Positions 40,667 through 47,428 of a stretch of DNA of 47,428 nucleotides are shown here, one piece after another. The stretch is taken from the NCBI GenBank assembly GCA_001781105.1, contig MFKV01000005.1, forward strand, positions 345 through 47,772. The letters are read 5' to 3'. Positions within the stretch are counted from its first letter, which is position 1. Each line of letters starts with the position of its first letter. The position numbers and the translations under genes are program-made. A model generated the notes under the pieces. It made no database searches, was not told the DNA's origin, and worked only from the letters and a program-made list of their open reading frames with translations. Source of the DNA: Candidatus Kaiserbacteria bacterium RIFCSPHIGHO2_01_FULL_54_36 (lineage in GTDB: Bacteria; Patescibacteriota; Minisyncoccia; Phycocordibacterales; UBA2100).

Positions 40667-40750
40667 GCGCGGGTGTTGAAACTGGTAGACAAGCTACCTT
40701 GAGGTGGTAGTGCTCGCAAGGGCGTGGAGGTTCGAGTCCTCTCCCGCGCA
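40667..40750 (+). tRNA. tRNA-Leu(GAG)
   Basis: GCGCGGG/CCCGCGC acceptor; anticodon stem-loop CTACC-TTGAGGT-GGTAG; class II variable arm; T-arm GGAGG-TTCGAGT-CCTCT. Confidence 0.95.
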
Positions 40751-40762
40751 CAGTAGTAGCTA

Positions 40763-42241
40763 CTAAATCCAAGTTTGGATTTTTCCAATGGACTTCGCCA
40801 AGCGAAGTCCATTGGTTTTGAGCCGCGCCGCGCGCTTCGCGCGCTTGAAGTGTGAGGTTGGAGCCGAAGATTTTTTGGAGGGTATATCGTCTCCTTTTGC
40901 GATTTCGTCTAGCATTTGCGCGTCTCGTATCCACTCGCGGAGAGGTTGGAGCCAAGCGGTAGCGTCCCGCTCCAACCGCCCGATCTGCTCCTCGGCCGAC
41001 CGCCTTTCGGACATAAGCGTCCGCTTCCTCTCCAAGTACTCCTCGCGCTTTATGTCCTGCTCCACATAGAGGTCGGTCAAGCGGCCCGTCTTTTCATCTA
41101 TGTCGGCGATGGCGGCGCGTAGCTCGCGGATAGCCCTCTCCGCTACCTTTCCGGCCTCCTGCTCGTCCTTGTCCGCGAGAGCAAGCATTTGCTCTGCCCA
41201 GCCCTGTGGCGGGGCGTGGCGGGTAAGCAAAGCCGACAACTGGGTTTCCAACGCCTCCCCGCGTATTGCGCCCTGCGAGCAGGGGCCGCGCTTTTTCGTA
41301 CAGCGATAGTACAGGTAGCGATGGACGTTCCCGTTCTTTTGGCGCTTGATTATCACTTCGCCGGTGATGGAACAGCCGCATTCGCCGCACCGCAAAAGCC
41401 CGCCGCAGAGGGCTTGCGGGTCTTTCTTCGCTTTTTGCGGGTGGCCGCGCTTTAGAAGTGCGGTCTGAACGCGGTCAAAAAGCTGTTTGGAAAGTATCGG
41501 CGAGTGCGTCCCTTTGTGTATCTCTCCGGCGTATTCAAAGTCGCCGTAGTAGAAGGTGTCGGTGAGGACGCGCTTGACCCTGTTCTTAGACCAGCGTCTA
41601 CCGCCGCCGCTTCCGCTCCGGCTTCCGGTGCGGATACCTTTCTCGTAGAAAAAGGTGGCGATGTCCTCAAAGCGCGACTGACCTTCGGCATATATCTCAA
41701 AGGCGCGGACAACGAGCGGCGCTTTGCGCCTATCAACATCGTGTCGCTTCGTACGCGGATTGTTTATATAACCGATACGCGCGGGGCCGGGATACTCCCC
41801 GCGCCGCGCTTTCTCCCGCAATCCGCGCCGCGTGTTGTAGGCCAAGTCGCGGCTGTATTGCGTCGCCATTCCAAACTCAACGGCCATAAGGAGGACGCTG
41901 TCTTTGGAGTAGTAGCTGCGCTCCGGCGTTTGTATGTGTTGGATTGTTCCTTCTTGGAGTAACCAACTGACTTGCCCGTTATCAACGGGATTGCGCCCCA
42001 AGCGATCAAGTTTCCAGCAAACGATACCTTGCGCCTCGCCACGCTGTATCCGTGTAAGCATTTCGTTGAAATGCGGACGGCCCGGCGTCTTGGCCGATTG
42101 CTTCTCTACAAACTCCGCCACGATCTCCAAGTTCTCGCGCTTTGCGAGCGAGCGGAGTTCGGATAGCTGGGATTCAATGGAGAGGACTTGCTTGTCCTCA
42201 ACATCGGTGCTTTTGCGGGCGTAGAGGAAATAACCTTTCAT
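40763..42241 (-). CDS. Large serine recombinase/site-specific integrase
   Basis: MKGYFLYARKSTDVEDKQVLSIESQLSELRSLA...GIVCWKLDRLGRNPVDNGQVSWLLQ; recombinase domain; zinc ribbon CGGLLRCGECGCSITG...YYRCTKKRGPCSQ; C-terminal coiled coil. Confidence 0.95.
   Translation of the reverse strand: MKGYFLYARKSTDVEDKQVLSIESQLSELRSLAKRENLEIVAEFVEKQSAKTPGRPHFNEMLTRIQRGEAQGIVCWKLDRLGRNPVDNGQVSWLLQEGTIQHIQTPERSYYSKDSVLLMAVEFGMATQYSRDLAYNTRRGLREKARRGEYPGPARIGYINNPRTKRHDVDRRKAPLVVRAFEIYAEGQSRFEDIATFFYEKGIRTGSRSGSGGGRRWSKNRVKRVLTDTFYYGDFEYAGEIHKGTHSPILSKQLFDRVQTALLKRGHPQKAKKDPQALCGGLLRCGECGCSITGEVIIKRQKNGNVHRYLYYRCTKKRGPCSQGAIRGEALETQLSALLTRHAPPQGWAEQMLALADKDEQEAGKVAERAIRELRAAIADIDEKTGRLTDLYVEQDIKREEYLERKRTLMSERRSAEEQIGRLERDATAWLQPLREWIRDAQMLDEIAKGDDIPSKKSSAPTSHFKRAKRAARLKTNGLRLAKSIGKIQTWI
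40763..42241 (-). mobile_element. Left end of an integrated element inserted beside tRNA-Leu, extending to the window end or beyond; only the recombinase interval is marked
   Basis: Large serine recombinase gene ends 12 bp from tRNA-Leu(GAG), followed by an accessory cassette; right boundary not visible. Confidence 0.6.
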
Positions 42242-42245
42242 AGTC

Positions 42246-42267
42246 CTATTGTAATATATTACAATAG
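42246..42267. promoter_or_regulatory. 22-bp perfect palindrome in the divergent recombinase/Xre intergenic region
   Basis: CTATTGTAATATATTACAATAG. Confidence 0.7.
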
Positions 42268-42303
42268 TAGTGTACAATACAACAAGGGACTATACTTTAA
42301 GCA

Positions 42304-42510
42304 ATGAAAAGTGAGTCCCAAAAGCTCGGAAAGAACCTAAAACGCATACGGACTAAGAAAGGAATGTCGCAGGGCGACATCGTCCGCGCGCTCGGCATAG
42401 GCAGGTCTTTCGTGAGTAATATTGAAAACGGGAAAGCCAACCCGACACTTGCCACCATCAGCAAGCTGGCGAATTTTCTCGGCGTATCGTCCGACGCGCT
42501 TTTGAAATAA
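42304..42510 (+). CDS. Xre-family HTH regulator
   Basis: LGKNLKRIRTKKGMSQGDIVRALGIGRSFVSNIENGKANPTLATISKLANFLGVSSDALLK. Confidence 0.93.
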   Translation: MKSESQKLGKNLKRIRTKKGMSQGDIVRALGIGRSFVSNIENGKANPTLATISKLANFLGVSSDALLK

Positions 42511-42516
42511 GATTTC

Positions 42517-43479
42517 ATGAAAAAGAACCTGAAAGCAATTGATCTATTTGCCGGAATCGGCGGTATCCGAATCGGTTTTGAATCGGCGGGTTTTGAAACT
42601 GTCTACGCGAACGACTTTGATGAACACGCAAGTGAGACGTATCGCATGAACTTCGGCGATATAGACGCTTCCGATTTTCTGAAAGTCATTGAAGAAAAAG
42701 GAATGAAAAAGATTCCCAAGCATTTTGATATTCTGCTCGGTGGCTTTCCTTGCCAGCCATTTTCGGTCGCTGGCAATAAGCGCGGCTTCGCCGACAAAGA
42801 CAGAGGCAATCTGCTGTTCGCTGTTATAGAAGTTCTCAAAGCCCGTAAGCCTAAGGCGATATTCTTGGAGAATGTAAAACACTTGAAGAATCACGACGAC
42901 GAAAAGACATTCAGGCGCATTCAAGATGAATTGAAACGCGCAGGCTATTACATGAAAGCGGAAGTGCTTAACAGCATGACGCACGGCAATGTACCGCAGA
43001 CGCGCGAACGAATATATATCGTCGCTTTCCGGTCGCCACGTACGCTTATGAAGTTCCATTTTCCTGCGCCGGTACCGCTTACGAAAAAGATGTCCCACAT
43101 TTTAGAGAAGAACGTTGACGACGGCTATTACTACGACAGCCGATACAAGGAAATATATCCGAAGCTTAAAACTGCGGTAAAACACCGCGACCGATTCTAC
43201 CAGTACCGACGCATATACGTCCGCGAAAATAAAAACGGCGTCTGTCCGACGCTTACGGCAAGCATGGGACAAGGAGGCCACAATGTACCGATAATCCGAG
43301 ACAGTAAAGGCATACGGAAGCTGACGCTACGAGAATGTGCCCGACTCCAAGGATTCCCAGAATCCTTTGTTTTTCCAGTACAGGCGAATGGTCACCTATA
43401 TAAACAGGTAGGAAACTCGGTTACCATTCCTGTTATAGCACGCATAGCTGAAAACATCAGGATTGCTTTGGAGGCGTAG
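42517..43479 (+). CDS. DNA (cytosine-5-)-methyltransferase
   Basis: Motif I DLFAGIGGIRIGFESAGF, motif IV GGFPCQPFSVAGNKRGF, motif VI FLENVKHL, motif VIII QTRERIYIVAF, motifs IX-X ECARLQGFPESF...QVGNSVTIPVIARIAENI. Confidence 0.97.
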   Translation: MKKNLKAIDLFAGIGGIRIGFESAGFETVYANDFDEHASETYRMNFGDIDASDFLKVIEEKGMKKIPKHFDILLGGFPCQPFSVAGNKRGFADKDRGNLLFAVIEVLKARKPKAIFLENVKHLKNHDDEKTFRRIQDELKRAGYYMKAEVLNSMTHGNVPQTRERIYIVAFRSPRTLMKFHFPAPVPLTKKMSHILEKNVDDGYYYDSRYKEIYPKLKTAVKHRDRFYQYRRIYVRENKNGVCPTLTASMGQGGHNVPIIRDSKGIRKLTLRECARLQGFPESFVFPVQANGHLYKQVGNSVTIPVIARIAENIRIALEA

Positions 43480-43521
43480 CCCTAAATTCTTTGCAAGCAA
43501 GGTCTTTTTATATAATATAGC

Positions 43522-43562
43522 CCTCCATTGACATAGATACCGGTTATCTGATACAGTGGAGG
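43522..43562 (+). promoter_or_regulatory. Hairpin/operator-like promoter region of the ATPase operon
   Basis: CCTCCATTG...CAGTGGAGG arms around TTGACA and a near-palindrome GATACCGGTTATC. Confidence 0.45.
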
Positions 43563-43566
43563 CGTC

Positions 43567-43782
43567 ATGGATAACAGGAGGCAGAATTTCAAACGACTGG
43601 CAGCCGCAAGAACTAATGAGGTTTTGCGACGCTTGAAGATTCTCGGAAATTGTTCCAACCGGAGCCATTACGATTATACGGAGGAGGAAGTAAATAAGAT
43701 ATTTTCTGAAATAGAAAGAAAGATCAGAGAGACGAAGGCGAAGTTCACTTTCCCGCATAGAGATAGTGGTTTCAAACTATAA
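43567..43782 (+). CDS. Small (71 aa) conserved-looking protein in the methyltransferase/ATPase cassette
   Basis: MDNRRQNFKRLAAARTNEVLRRLKILGNCSNRSHYDYTEEEVNKIFSEIERKIRETKAKF; ends 4 bp before the ATPase start. Confidence 0.7.
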   Translation: MDNRRQNFKRLAAARTNEVLRRLKILGNCSNRSHYDYTEEEVNKIFSEIERKIRETKAKFTFPHRDSGFKL

Positions 43783-43786
43783 AGAT

Positions 43787-45619
43787 ATGTCAAAGATTTT
43801 CTGGTATTTCCCTAGCACGGGACACGGCGAGAACCACGGATTCCAAGACCCGCTTCTTCAGTATTTCCAAGGAGATCATGAGAACTACATTGCGCGCGAG
43901 GCGATTCAAAACGCCGTTGACGCGCGACTTGATTACGATAAGCCGGTATCGGTCGTATTTGAAAAGACCGCGATTCTCAACTCCTCGTTCCCCGGCTACT
44001 CGGAGCTTCTGGATAAACTCCATCGCTGTCTGGTATTCGTGAAGGGACAGGACAAAGCGGAGCCGTTTTTCAAATCCGCTATAGCCCTTCTGAAAGGAAA
44101 AAATCTCCCTGTATTGAAAATCAGCGATTTTAATACCAGAGGTCTTTCCGGGTCGGACGATGACGTAGACGGAAACTGGCACCGCCTTGTGAGAGCGGCA
44201 GGAACAAGCTCTCTGAAAGGCGCGGGTGGAGGTTCTTTTGGTATCGGAAAAGGCGCTCCTATCGTCGCTTCGGCGCTAAGGACAGTCTTCTATTCAAGTA
44301 TCAACGACAAGGACGAACTGGTCTTTCAAGGAAAGGCGCGATTGGTAAGCCATCACGACGACGAACGCGACGTGAGGCAAGGAATCGGATTCTACGGCGT
44401 AGAAGGATACAAGGCGTTGAGAAATGACGCTCTCGTTCCCGATTTCTTCAAGCGGAGCGAACGGGGCACGGATATTTATGTGATGGGCTATAAGACGGGA
44501 GCAGATTGGAAAGGGAAACTGATAAAGTCAGTTCTCCACAACTTCTGGCTCGCAATCTACAACGGCGACCTTGAAGTTTCAATCCGAGACGGATCTGAAC
44601 TTACAATAACAAAAAGTAATCTTCGCAAATATCTTGATGATTATGACGCCGAGGACGCAAAATTTTATTTTGAAGCCGTAACGAACTGGACGAAAGATTT
44701 TCATGTAGAGCTTAAACACCTCGGCAAGGTTTCGCTCTATGTCCGTAAGCAAGATAATTACCCTAGCAGAGTAATGATGGCGCGGAAGCCCCGAATGCTT
44801 GTGGCGGAGAAGCAGTACCGCTCTCTTAGAGAACCTTATGCAGCTGTCTTTATCTGCGATAACGATAAAGGAAATGCGCTTCTGCGCGATCTTGAACCGC
44901 CCGCGCATGATAAGTGGAATAGAGACCTTGCGGACAACGGCAAGATAATAATGCGCGAACTGGACGAATTTATAAAAGAAAAACTCAAAAGCATGGGGGA
45001 AGATATAACAAGCGAGCCACAGGATATTCCGGGACTGGCACGATATTTGCCCGACAACGAAGAACGCGAGTACTTGTCTCTTACGGAAGCAGAGGCCGTT
45101 GACCCGACGGAACTTAATACCGACGAGGAGACAGGTCATGAGATAGGTGCGGAGAAGGAACTAGCCTCGGCTGATATAGAAACAATAGTTAGAAAAGGGA
45201 TTGTAACGACGAAAGAGAATAAGCCCGTAGGCCCCACGCCTCCGGTCGGGCCGGGCAACGGACCTAGTGGCAGAGCCACCGGCCCCGAAGAAGGGACGAA
45301 GGAAGGAGCGAGAATAAAAACTTCCGCGATCAGTTTCAGGAGCTTTGTTCAGAAAGGCAAAGCCGGTTTTGAGTATCACCTTGCGATAACCGGCCGAGAA
45401 GATTGCGAAGGAGCCATACGTTTAGTAGCAGTCGGCGATGAGGGGAGCTATCCAGTGGAATTAAAATCTGTGGCAGAAGAAAAATCTGGCACGAGCTACG
45501 ACACTAGCGAATCAATGATAAAAGGTCTGTCCATAGAAAACGGCAAGACTCTTAAACTGATAGTGCTCCTCGCTTCTCCGAAGAAATACGCGTTAGCAAT
45601 AGAAAACTATGAAGGTTAA
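43787..45619 (+). CDS. GHKL (HATPase_c)-fold ATPase, MutL/MORC-like, candidate defence component
   Basis: N-box IAREAIQNAVDAR; G1-like LKISDFNTRGL; G2-like GGSFGIGKGAPIVAS; flexible PxxGPGNGPSG linker and C-terminal beta-rich region. Confidence 0.8.
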   Translation: MSKIFWYFPSTGHGENHGFQDPLLQYFQGDHENYIAREAIQNAVDARLDYDKPVSVVFEKTAILNSSFPGYSELLDKLHRCLVFVKGQDKAEPFFKSAIALLKGKNLPVLKISDFNTRGLSGSDDDVDGNWHRLVRAAGTSSLKGAGGGSFGIGKGAPIVASALRTVFYSSINDKDELVFQGKARLVSHHDDERDVRQGIGFYGVEGYKALRNDALVPDFFKRSERGTDIYVMGYKTGADWKGKLIKSVLHNFWLAIYNGDLEVSIRDGSELTITKSNLRKYLDDYDAEDAKFYFEAVTNWTKDFHVELKHLGKVSLYVRKQDNYPSRVMMARKPRMLVAEKQYRSLREPYAAVFICDNDKGNALLRDLEPPAHDKWNRDLADNGKIIMRELDEFIKEKLKSMGEDITSEPQDIPGLARYLPDNEEREYLSLTEAEAVDPTELNTDEETGHEIGAEKELASADIETIVRKGIVTTKENKPVGPTPPVGPGNGPSGRATGPEEGTKEGARIKTSAISFRSFVQKGKAGFEYHLAITGREDCEGAIRLVAVGDEGSYPVELKSVAEEKSGTSYDTSESMIKGLSIENGKTLKLIVLLASPKKYALAIENYEG

Positions 45620-46454
45620 CGCTAAATCATACCCGCACCCTGTTTTAGGAAACGAGGACGACCTCGCGGGGTTTTTCAAAGTGGAGTTTCATTACGAACT
45701 TGGAAAAGAAGCGATAGTTCTCAATCCGACCTTCTCAATCAAAAATAACGGAATCGAAGAATTGCTGAAAAAAGAAAAAGCTTCATTCGTCGCTGAAGTG
45801 GAATGTGGCAACACTTTTTACAGAAAGAGCTTCCTGACCAGAAAACAATTGGAGCGTTTTTCAATTCCGGCGGTCGCGCTCCGCGACCGCGTTACAGTCG
45901 GCTTCTATGTATGCGCCGACCAAGACATGAAGGGTTATCGCCCCAGCGAATTACACCCTGATTACGGGGAGGCCGTCTTCGATGTAGAAGCCGGAGACGT
46001 AATAGCGGTAGGGGGCTACTGTTCTTTCATTGCAGAAAAAGCTTTTGATCCGTTGCGTCCGCCGGTCGCCTCCTTTATTTCAATCATTGAAGGCACTCGC
46101 CATGAAGACCCGATACAAGTGGATTACGATAGCGACAAAATAACGATAGTGCTATCTAAGTCCGACTGGAAGAAATATCTGGAAGTGCGCGGACAGAAAC
46201 CTGCCGAGGGTATTATCCACGGTTCAATAGTATTTCCAGTGCTTGTAGACGCAGTCCATAAAGTACAAAAAGACGACGGCGAATACGGCGAGAGAAACTG
46301 GTTCGCCCGAATAGAAGCAATCATGGTGGCGAAGGGTCTTTCCGATAAAGACCCTGTTGAAGTAGCGCAAAAGATTCTGGAAAATCCGGCAAGCAGAAGC
46401 TTGCAAGGAATTGACACGCTTCTTAACGTATCAAACGAACAAGTATATGAATAA
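45609..46454 (+). CDS. Uncharacterised protein translationally coupled to the GHKL ATPase
   Basis: 281 aa, MKVNAKSYPHPVLGNEDDLAGFFKVEFHYELG...; overlaps the ATPase stop by 11 bp. Confidence 0.75.
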   Translation: MKVNAKSYPHPVLGNEDDLAGFFKVEFHYELGKEAIVLNPTFSIKNNGIEELLKKEKASFVAEVECGNTFYRKSFLTRKQLERFSIPAVALRDRVTVGFYVCADQDMKGYRPSELHPDYGEAVFDVEAGDVIAVGGYCSFIAEKAFDPLRPPVASFISIIEGTRHEDPIQVDYDSDKITIVLSKSDWKKYLEVRGQKPAEGIIHGSIVFPVLVDAVHKVQKDDGEYGERNWFARIEAIMVAKGLSDKDPVEVAQKILENPASRSLQGIDTLLNVSNEQVYE

Positions 46455-47256
46455 GAAATTTCAAAAGATATTTTTCGGCAACGCAGTAGCAGTAATGCGG
46501 AACGAACTTAAATCCGGCGACGCTCTGGAAAGCTACTTCCGCGAATCCTATCCGGTGAAGGAAAAGACGCTCCTCAAATCCACAATTGAGATTCAAGAAA
46601 AACCTCTCACGCTTAAAGCCCCTAAGAAAGACCCTGTTTCTACCGACTTGGAAAATGCCATAGCAATTTATGAATACTATAAAAACTTGGACGAGGTTCA
46701 GGCGTCTGACCCGCGTCTCTGGACGTATCTAAGTCATGTTGAATTCAGAAGGTACTCTCTGGCCAGATGGGGATTGAAAGGGGCTTTTAAAGATATAAAA
46801 GACGCCACTACAAGAACGAAGGCGGTAAATTACATTCTTGAACATTGGTTTGTGAGCGGGAACGATCGCGATTTGCGCCGCCACGCTATAGCCCGCCTCT
46901 GGTGGGCAGCACGACTTACATATGCTCCGTGGGTATCCGACCCGGAGTATTTTGCTGACCTCAAAAATAAAGACCTTTATTATTACACTCGCGTTTTGCT
47001 TTTCACACAGGATATTTATCAGCAAGTTTTGGAGCGCGGCATGGGTCGCTCAAATAGGATTCTCATATCCATACTTGATTATCTCGTTCGGAATAAGAAG
47101 TTCGCGGAATCGCGAGAAAATATAAGAAGCTTGATGAAGGAATTAAATTTGGCTTATGGAACGAAAAAAATAATCACCTTAGACAGACTCACTTTAAAAT
47201 CTCTCATTGAGAAAACGGCGCAAGATATTGAAAAGAATTCGGAATATGGAAAATAA
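46447..47256 (+). CDS. Uncharacterised protein, possibly DUF6339-like
   Basis: 269 aa, MNKKFQKIFFGNAVAVMRNELKSGDALESYFRESY...DPRLWTYLSHVEFRRYSLARWGLKG...RHAIARLWWAARLTY; overlaps the previous gene by 8 bp. Domain name is from memory. Confidence 0.65.
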   Translation: MNKKFQKIFFGNAVAVMRNELKSGDALESYFRESYPVKEKTLLKSTIEIQEKPLTLKAPKKDPVSTDLENAIAIYEYYKNLDEVQASDPRLWTYLSHVEFRRYSLARWGLKGAFKDIKDATTRTKAVNYILEHWFVSGNDRDLRRHAIARLWWAARLTYAPWVSDPEYFADLKNKDLYYYTRVLLFTQDIYQQVLERGMGRSNRILISILDYLVRNKKFAESRENIRSLMKELNLAYGTKKIITLDRLTLKSLIEKTAQDIEKNSEYGK

Positions 47257-47428
47257 ACGAAAACACCTTGAGTTTATACAAGTCGTGATTAGCCGAATGG
47301 CCAGCAATCTATTTTTCTTGAGGGGTTGGACAATAACTTTGATTACGGGACTTTTTGCCTTATCCGCCGCGAAAGGAGAATACAGTGGTTATATCTTACT
47401 GGCGTATTTCCTGCTTCTTGTCTTTTGG
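47246..47428 (+). CDS. Membrane protein, 3' end beyond the window
   Basis: MENKRKHLEFIQVVISRMASNLFFLRGWTITLITGLFALSAAKGEYSGYILLAYFLLLVFW...; overlaps the preceding gene; two predicted TM segments so far. Confidence 0.65.
   Translation, partial: MENKRKHLEFIQVVISRMASNLFFLRGWTITLITGLFALSAAKGEYSGYILLAYFLLLVFW

Follow-up and report, generated by a model that had tools for sequence, protein, structure and literature searches.

MutL and MORC proteins dimerise on DNA when they bind ATP, and MutL activates the nucleases MutH and Vsr. GHKL ATPases are also found in restriction-modification-type loci, and one family, paraMORC2, is marked by an ExxxH motif in the C-terminal part of the S5 domain, the corresponding mark of the MORC family being GhXhhpXXRhl (passages on these families in Iyer, Abhiman and Aravind 2008, PMC2292703). 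Mza and the Z1-helicase MORC systems combine a GHKL ATPase with a methyltransferase, Vsr and RE-fold nucleases (PMC2292703). In VcSduA, a Shedu protein shown to restrict phage, an N-terminal GHKL domain (paraMORC3) is proposed to control the nuclease (PMC12137116). Lastly, the PDC entries of PADLOC-DB 2.0 are candidates from a guilt-by-embedding survey, the majority of which have not yet been tested (PMC12988326). One of these is PDC-M33, and in the open literature other than bioRxiv preprints we found no publication naming PDC-M33 or DUF6339 and no functional or anti-phage data on PDC-M33.

The window analysed here, 47,428 nucleotides long, comprises bases 345-47772 of a contig from a Candidatus Kaiserbacteria assembly (0.87 Mb, 93% complete). 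The contig stops at window position 47428, so there is no sequence past that point to read. The features that concern us are as follows, in window coordinates.

40667-40751, + strand: tRNA-Leu (gag); host synteny stops at its 3' end
40763-42277, - strand: large serine recombinase, probably the element's integrase (PF00239 1e-21, PF07508 2e-14, PF13408 2e-9)
42304-42510, + strand: Xre-type HTH regulator, 68 aa (HTH_3 PF01381 8e-17)
42517-43479, + strand: C5 cytosine DNA methyltransferase, 320 aa (PF00145 4e-85; PDB M.HhaI 2e-56)
43528-43557, + strand: promoter-like site shortly 5' of S, TTGACA-18-TACAGT, 10/12 (consensus match only)
43567-43782, + strand: S, 71 aa, found next to GHKL-like ATPases (Pfam, NCBIfam and PADLOC give no significant match)
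43787-45619, + strand: A, GHKL-type ATPase of paraMORC2 type, 610 aa from ATG (PDC-M33A 3e-137)
45609-46454, + strand: B, 281 aa, PDC-M33B (PADLOC 8e-59)
46447-47256, + strand: C, 269 aa from ATG, PDC-M33C / DUF6339 (PF19866 3e-40; PDC-M33C 5e-37)
47246-47428, + strand: PDC-M50A membrane protein, N-terminal 61 aa from an ATG at 47246 (9e-20); the contig end cuts the ORF

An ORF check recovers, each in its place, on one strand and tightly spaced, the Xre regulator, C5 methyltransferase, 71-aa protein, GHKL ATPase, 281- and 269-aa proteins and membrane ORF that a preliminary description of this DNA had reported. The methyltransferase and S are separated by 87 nt and S and A by 4, after which A-B, B-C and C-membrane ORF overlap by 11, 8 and 11 nt; an alternative GTG start of A at 43766 would give 617 aa. 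Counts of promoter-like sites such as the one before S are near the shuffled background. The methyltransferase resembles M.HhaI along its entire length. The membrane protein, which had been called truncated, is indeed incomplete as an ORF, but it ends where the assembled contig ends and is not a broken gene.

Although B and C had been treated as uncharacterised proteins, the adjacent, overlapping genes A, B and C match the three components of the PADLOC candidate PDC-M33 in order, and C is also DUF6339 by Pfam search. Judged from its sequence, the cassette is therefore another member of a kind known so far as a candidate only; it differs from the PDC-M33 entry in that PADLOC has no model matching S. 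Alignments of B and C contain few invariant residues and no catalytic pattern or conserved nuclease residues, and a PDB sequence search with the A, B and C profiles gave no significant match. C is predicted, with low confidence, to be helical (AlphaFold model from a two-sequence alignment, pLDDT 49.2). The membrane fragment matches PDC-M50A, a component of a separate candidate that is not seen after C in relatives, so we reject both its membership in the system and the earlier suggestion that it is a toxic or accessory part. A search of the same assembly for PDC-M50B, run without a positive control, found no match. One relative, L029, has a DUF4760-like membrane protein after C.

The cassette lies at a tRNA gene, with the serine recombinase gene between tRNA-Leu and the cassette. 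Homology with most matching congeneric genomes ends at the 3' end of the tRNA-Leu (query position 592-594, window about 40751), and beyond it each congener carries a different sequence. The G+C content, 0.54-0.59, falls to about 0.47 at the cassette. These observations fit an integrated serine-recombinase element at tRNA-Leu, with its right end missing from the assembly. At the start of contig C19 sits a gene that in congeners comes after tRNA-Leu, but no attR was found there: no 10-mer is common to the first 200 bases and the tRNA-Leu region. Large serine recombinases also occur near S or M33 loci elsewhere (L016, L026, L029, L084 and L085), which suggests that such loci are repeatedly carried on serine-recombinase elements in several CPR-type genomes.

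To place A among GHKL ATPases, we examined its conserved motifs. Seventeen A homologues share invariant N-box residues (R37, E38, Q41, D45 and A46), so the N-box REAIQNAVDAR picked out earlier is both real and conserved; D114, T117 and G119, then G149, G152 and G154, and finally G227 and T228 are likewise invariant. All 18 A sequences carry ExxxH (E370, H374) and none carries the MORC-specific GhXhhpXXRhl motif, and we assign A to the paraMORC2 type because it bears the ExxxH mark of that family. In profile comparisons the G1 and G2 motifs of A align with those of E. coli HtpG with a probability of 41-49%, whereas an unrelated control reaches 0.1%. The same comparison detected no match between A and E. 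coli MutL, and direct MutL homology is rejected on that ground. An AlphaFold model of A built from a two-sequence alignment has a pLDDT of 34.5, too low for a fold search. The closest named relative of A, in a Magasanikbacteria MAG, is 71% identical. We infer a GHKL fold for A from these motifs and from weak profile scores.

Several described systems resemble this arrangement. The loci share with paraMORC2, as characterised in passages of PMC2292703, the GHKL motifs, an ExxxH towards the C-terminal side of the ATPase region, a restriction-modification neighbourhood and a patchy spread that includes Gram-positives; they differ in that B, C and S do not appear in those passages and that no SF2 helicase of the Z1 kind is seen beside the present loci. 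The preliminary description had pointed to GHKL ATPases in restriction-modification-type loci, sometimes with Z1-domain helicases (Iyer 2008); the restriction-modification linkage holds, but A is of paraMORC2 type and the annotations beside its relatives contain no Z1 helicase. Neither Z1 helicase nor AIPR was found among the annotated neighbours of seven plasmid loci or the scanned L003 ORFs, and A has no Mza match in PADLOC, so membership in the Z1-helicase MORC or Mza systems is rejected. Like the GHKL domain of VcSduA, A may control a nuclease, but in VcSduA the nuclease is fused, whereas in the present loci it is separate and variable. Shedu type I-D, in which a DUF4263 nuclease and GHKL form one protein, is likewise rejected, as A has no SduA_C and the SduA_C gene in L005 is a separate one. 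The likeness to MutL-MutH and MutL-Vsr mismatch repair is that a GHKL ATPase there activates separate RE-fold nucleases under methylation control, as A may do, and MutH and Vsr lie beside several relatives of the cassette; the difference is that no sequence similarity between A and E. coli MutL is detectable.

We gathered M33 loci from CPR-type genomes, plasmids and one faecal scaffold, of which 17 were readable (contig ends interrupt L017, L027 and L032); no relatives were found in viral contigs. The order A-B-C is constant wherever it can be read, and S lies immediately 5' of A in 15 M33 loci; a profile search did not find it in L007, L008 or L061. Curated profiles recognise A, B and C individually, and phyla far apart carry the three together in unchanged order, so the cassette exceeds what chance would produce. 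A C5 methyltransferase is present in 15 of the 17 readable loci, and in all nine readable loci from CPR-type genomes. By comparison, C5 methyltransferases are carried by 27 of 118 genomes of the order, or about 0.4 per Mb, which gives a chance of about 0.4% per locus of finding one within 5 kb. The earlier proposal of a methyltransferase-linked GHKL ATPase cassette of restriction-modification type is thus borne out, since the ATPase, B and C genes do co-occur with methyltransferases. On the Paenarthrobacter plasmid the DUF6339 gene appears frameshifted (L009, 11773-12580); a Haloplanus plasmid carries an archaeal M33-like locus (L071, 6905-10488) in which A is apparently frameshifted or split and DUF6339 lies downstream; and GenBank MT837792 (L061), labelled Bacteriophage sp. 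and perhaps of non-phage origin, holds a 6.2-kb Xre-A-B-C-HNH-C5 methyltransferase cassette.

Unlike the methyltransferase, the nuclease changes from locus to locus. Most relatives adjoin one of restriction type: HpaII in L015, HNH in L016 and L061, a NucS-like enzyme in L028 and more weakly in L026, a NOV_C protein in L004, MutH in L006, EcoRII-C in L005 and L009, Shedu in L005, an AlwI-like enzyme in L010, and Vsr in 8 loci; in L003 a DUF6119 protein lies beside the cassette. These lists were compiled from gene lists by eye and from Pfam searches of selected ORFs, and may thus have overlooked a nuclease of a new kind. The window shows no nuclease before the contig end at 47428. None was recognised in the flanks of L029 or in the 25-kb contig of L030, where methyltransferase-S-A-B-C alone sits between unrelated genes. 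For the window, the nuclease either lies past the contig end or is not required.

Based on these data, we propose, with a probability of roughly 0.5, that the cassette is a mobile C5-methyltransferase restriction-modification system in which a MutL-like ATPase module controls the nuclease. The methyltransferase would mark the host's own sites, and S, A, B and C would form an ATP-dependent complex. Upon binding ATP, the GHKL ATPase A would dimerise on DNA in the manner of MutL and MORC proteins, with B and C as dedicated non-catalytic partners and S as a small subunit that either links A to its target or regulates it. When the DNA is unmarked, the complex may then recruit or license the nuclease of the variable partner, in a way comparable to the activation of MutH and Vsr by MutL, and in nuclease-free loci S-A-B-C may act alone. 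ATPase activity, DNA clamping, nuclease licensing and phage defence are all putative functions here. In favour of this reading are the match of A-B-C to PDC-M33, the C5 linkage, the GHKL motifs and ExxxH of A and its profile match to HtpG, and the lack of conserved nuclease residues in B and C while unrelated adjacent nucleases, including MutH and Vsr, recur. Counting against it are L029 and L030, with no recognisable nuclease, L007 and L008, in which no C5 methyltransferase was found, and the GHKL identity of A, which comes from motifs and weak profile scores with no Pfam or PDB match.

L029 and L030 lend some weight to a different and rather doubtful explanation, in which S-A-B-C is itself the effector: a MORC-like ATPase would entrap or compact unmethylated DNA, or kill the cell, without cutting, the methyltransferase would protect the host, and the nucleases at other loci would be independent restriction enzymes. 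That L030 consists of methyltransferase-S-A-B-C alone, that L029 has no recognisable nuclease nearby, and that the nuclease family differs from locus to locus are all as expected if the nuclease is not intrinsic. However, a restriction-type nuclease adjoins most loci, and because B and C have no conserved catalytic residues, A would have to bring about the effect by itself. It is unlikely that PDC-M33 is a defence module in its own right that only happens to share islands with restriction-modification systems, as guilt by embedding would have it, and does not read methylation. In its favour, L007 and L008 adjoin AlwI-type or N6-adenine systems in place of a C5 methyltransferase, and the methyltransferase varies in order and lies on the opposite strand in L006, L009 and L025; yet linkage to one methyltransferase class in 15 of 17 loci, directly 5' of S in the window, L029 and L030, is greater than island co-residence would lead us to expect. 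Finally, a decaying or orphaned cassette that has lost its nuclease and persists as a methylation or regulatory relic is very improbable: no nuclease is in view in the window, L029 or L030, but all frames are intact, the motifs are conserved and the A proteins of the window, L003 and L030 are 68-71% identical across distant lineages.

The 71-aa S, on which the preliminary description made no comment, is the most informative part of the cassette. Its matches in PHROG are marginal, and the family is apparently uncatalogued and occurs beside GHKL-like ATPases outside PDC-M33 (L067, L068, L069, L082-L089). A GHKL-like ATPase adjoins S in 26 of 27 S loci. The exception is on a Vescimonas plasmid (L070, 6016-6204), where an S-like ORF comes after an N-6 DNA methylase and has no GHKL neighbour; a PDC-S27-like ATPase lies further along. 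The S-linked ATPases fall into at least five groups that BLAST does not join at 1e-5, in type II, type III and other methyltransferase contexts. A search with S alone in 277 genomes of the order found ten carriers (A was found in 2 of 397), and the eight additional ones have S next to other GHKL-like proteins. One group has HATPase_c_3 (6e-9 in L083) and is followed by type III Mod and Res (L083 and L087; L085 is cut); another sits beside an N4/N6 methyltransferase (L084, L086 and L088). In L082 one gene intervenes between S and the GHKL-like gene, and in L089 the GHKL protein was recognised by motif. Plasmids of Ensifer, Dinoroseobacter and Rhizobium add further GHKL-like proteins that are preceded by S. 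The GHKL call is supported by Pfam above the cut-off in L083 and only below it in L068, L069 and L086; in L067, L082, L084, L088 and L089 it is made by motifs or by similarity to the others. In profile comparisons A is weakly linked to the type III group (29%), which is itself joined to the N4/N6 group at 66% and to HtpG at 94%. Two near-identical Agrobacterium plasmids, possibly virulence plasmids, also carry S, and their neighbourhoods were left out. Between the GHKL gene and type III Mod/Res, L083 (10003-10872) and L087 (2195-3073) encode a 289-292-aa protein with no Pfam match.

The sequence of S appears to track the host and not the ATPase. Mean S identity is 53% between different partners in the same host group versus 37% for the same partner in different hosts, a contrast that is exaggerated, since the window S served as the query that retrieved the extra CPR-type examples. 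The window S is 54-63% identical to type III-linked S of its own order versus 41% (L016) and 37% (L032) for M33-linked S. A tree of the 71-residue S is weakly resolved. That S follows the host rather than the ATPase suggests that it may dock the ATPase to a conserved host component or DNA structure. We tentatively suggest that S, a family of about 75 aa, could be a small subunit common to restriction-linked GHKL ATPases and exchangeable among them; it would serve at least five GHKL groups, which accompany type II, type III and N4/N6-methyltransferase systems. The link between S and GHKL proteins may be a new point, and is one that specialists may not expect.

PDC-M33, until now a database name, thus gains a family (paraMORC2 type), a methyltransferase that is consistently its partner, a nuclease that changes, and a fourth component that had been missing. 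The proposed mechanism becomes testable, as methyltransferase-S-A-B-C comprises five genes and is small enough to clone. Bacterial MORC-like ATPases are relatives of the eukaryotic MORC silencing proteins, and if S is their common subunit, it would offer a handle on how they are coupled to DNA methylation. Such a shared subunit, together with the nuclease-free methyltransferase-S-A-B-C loci, would set methylation-guarded GHKL modules apart as a separate class of defence.
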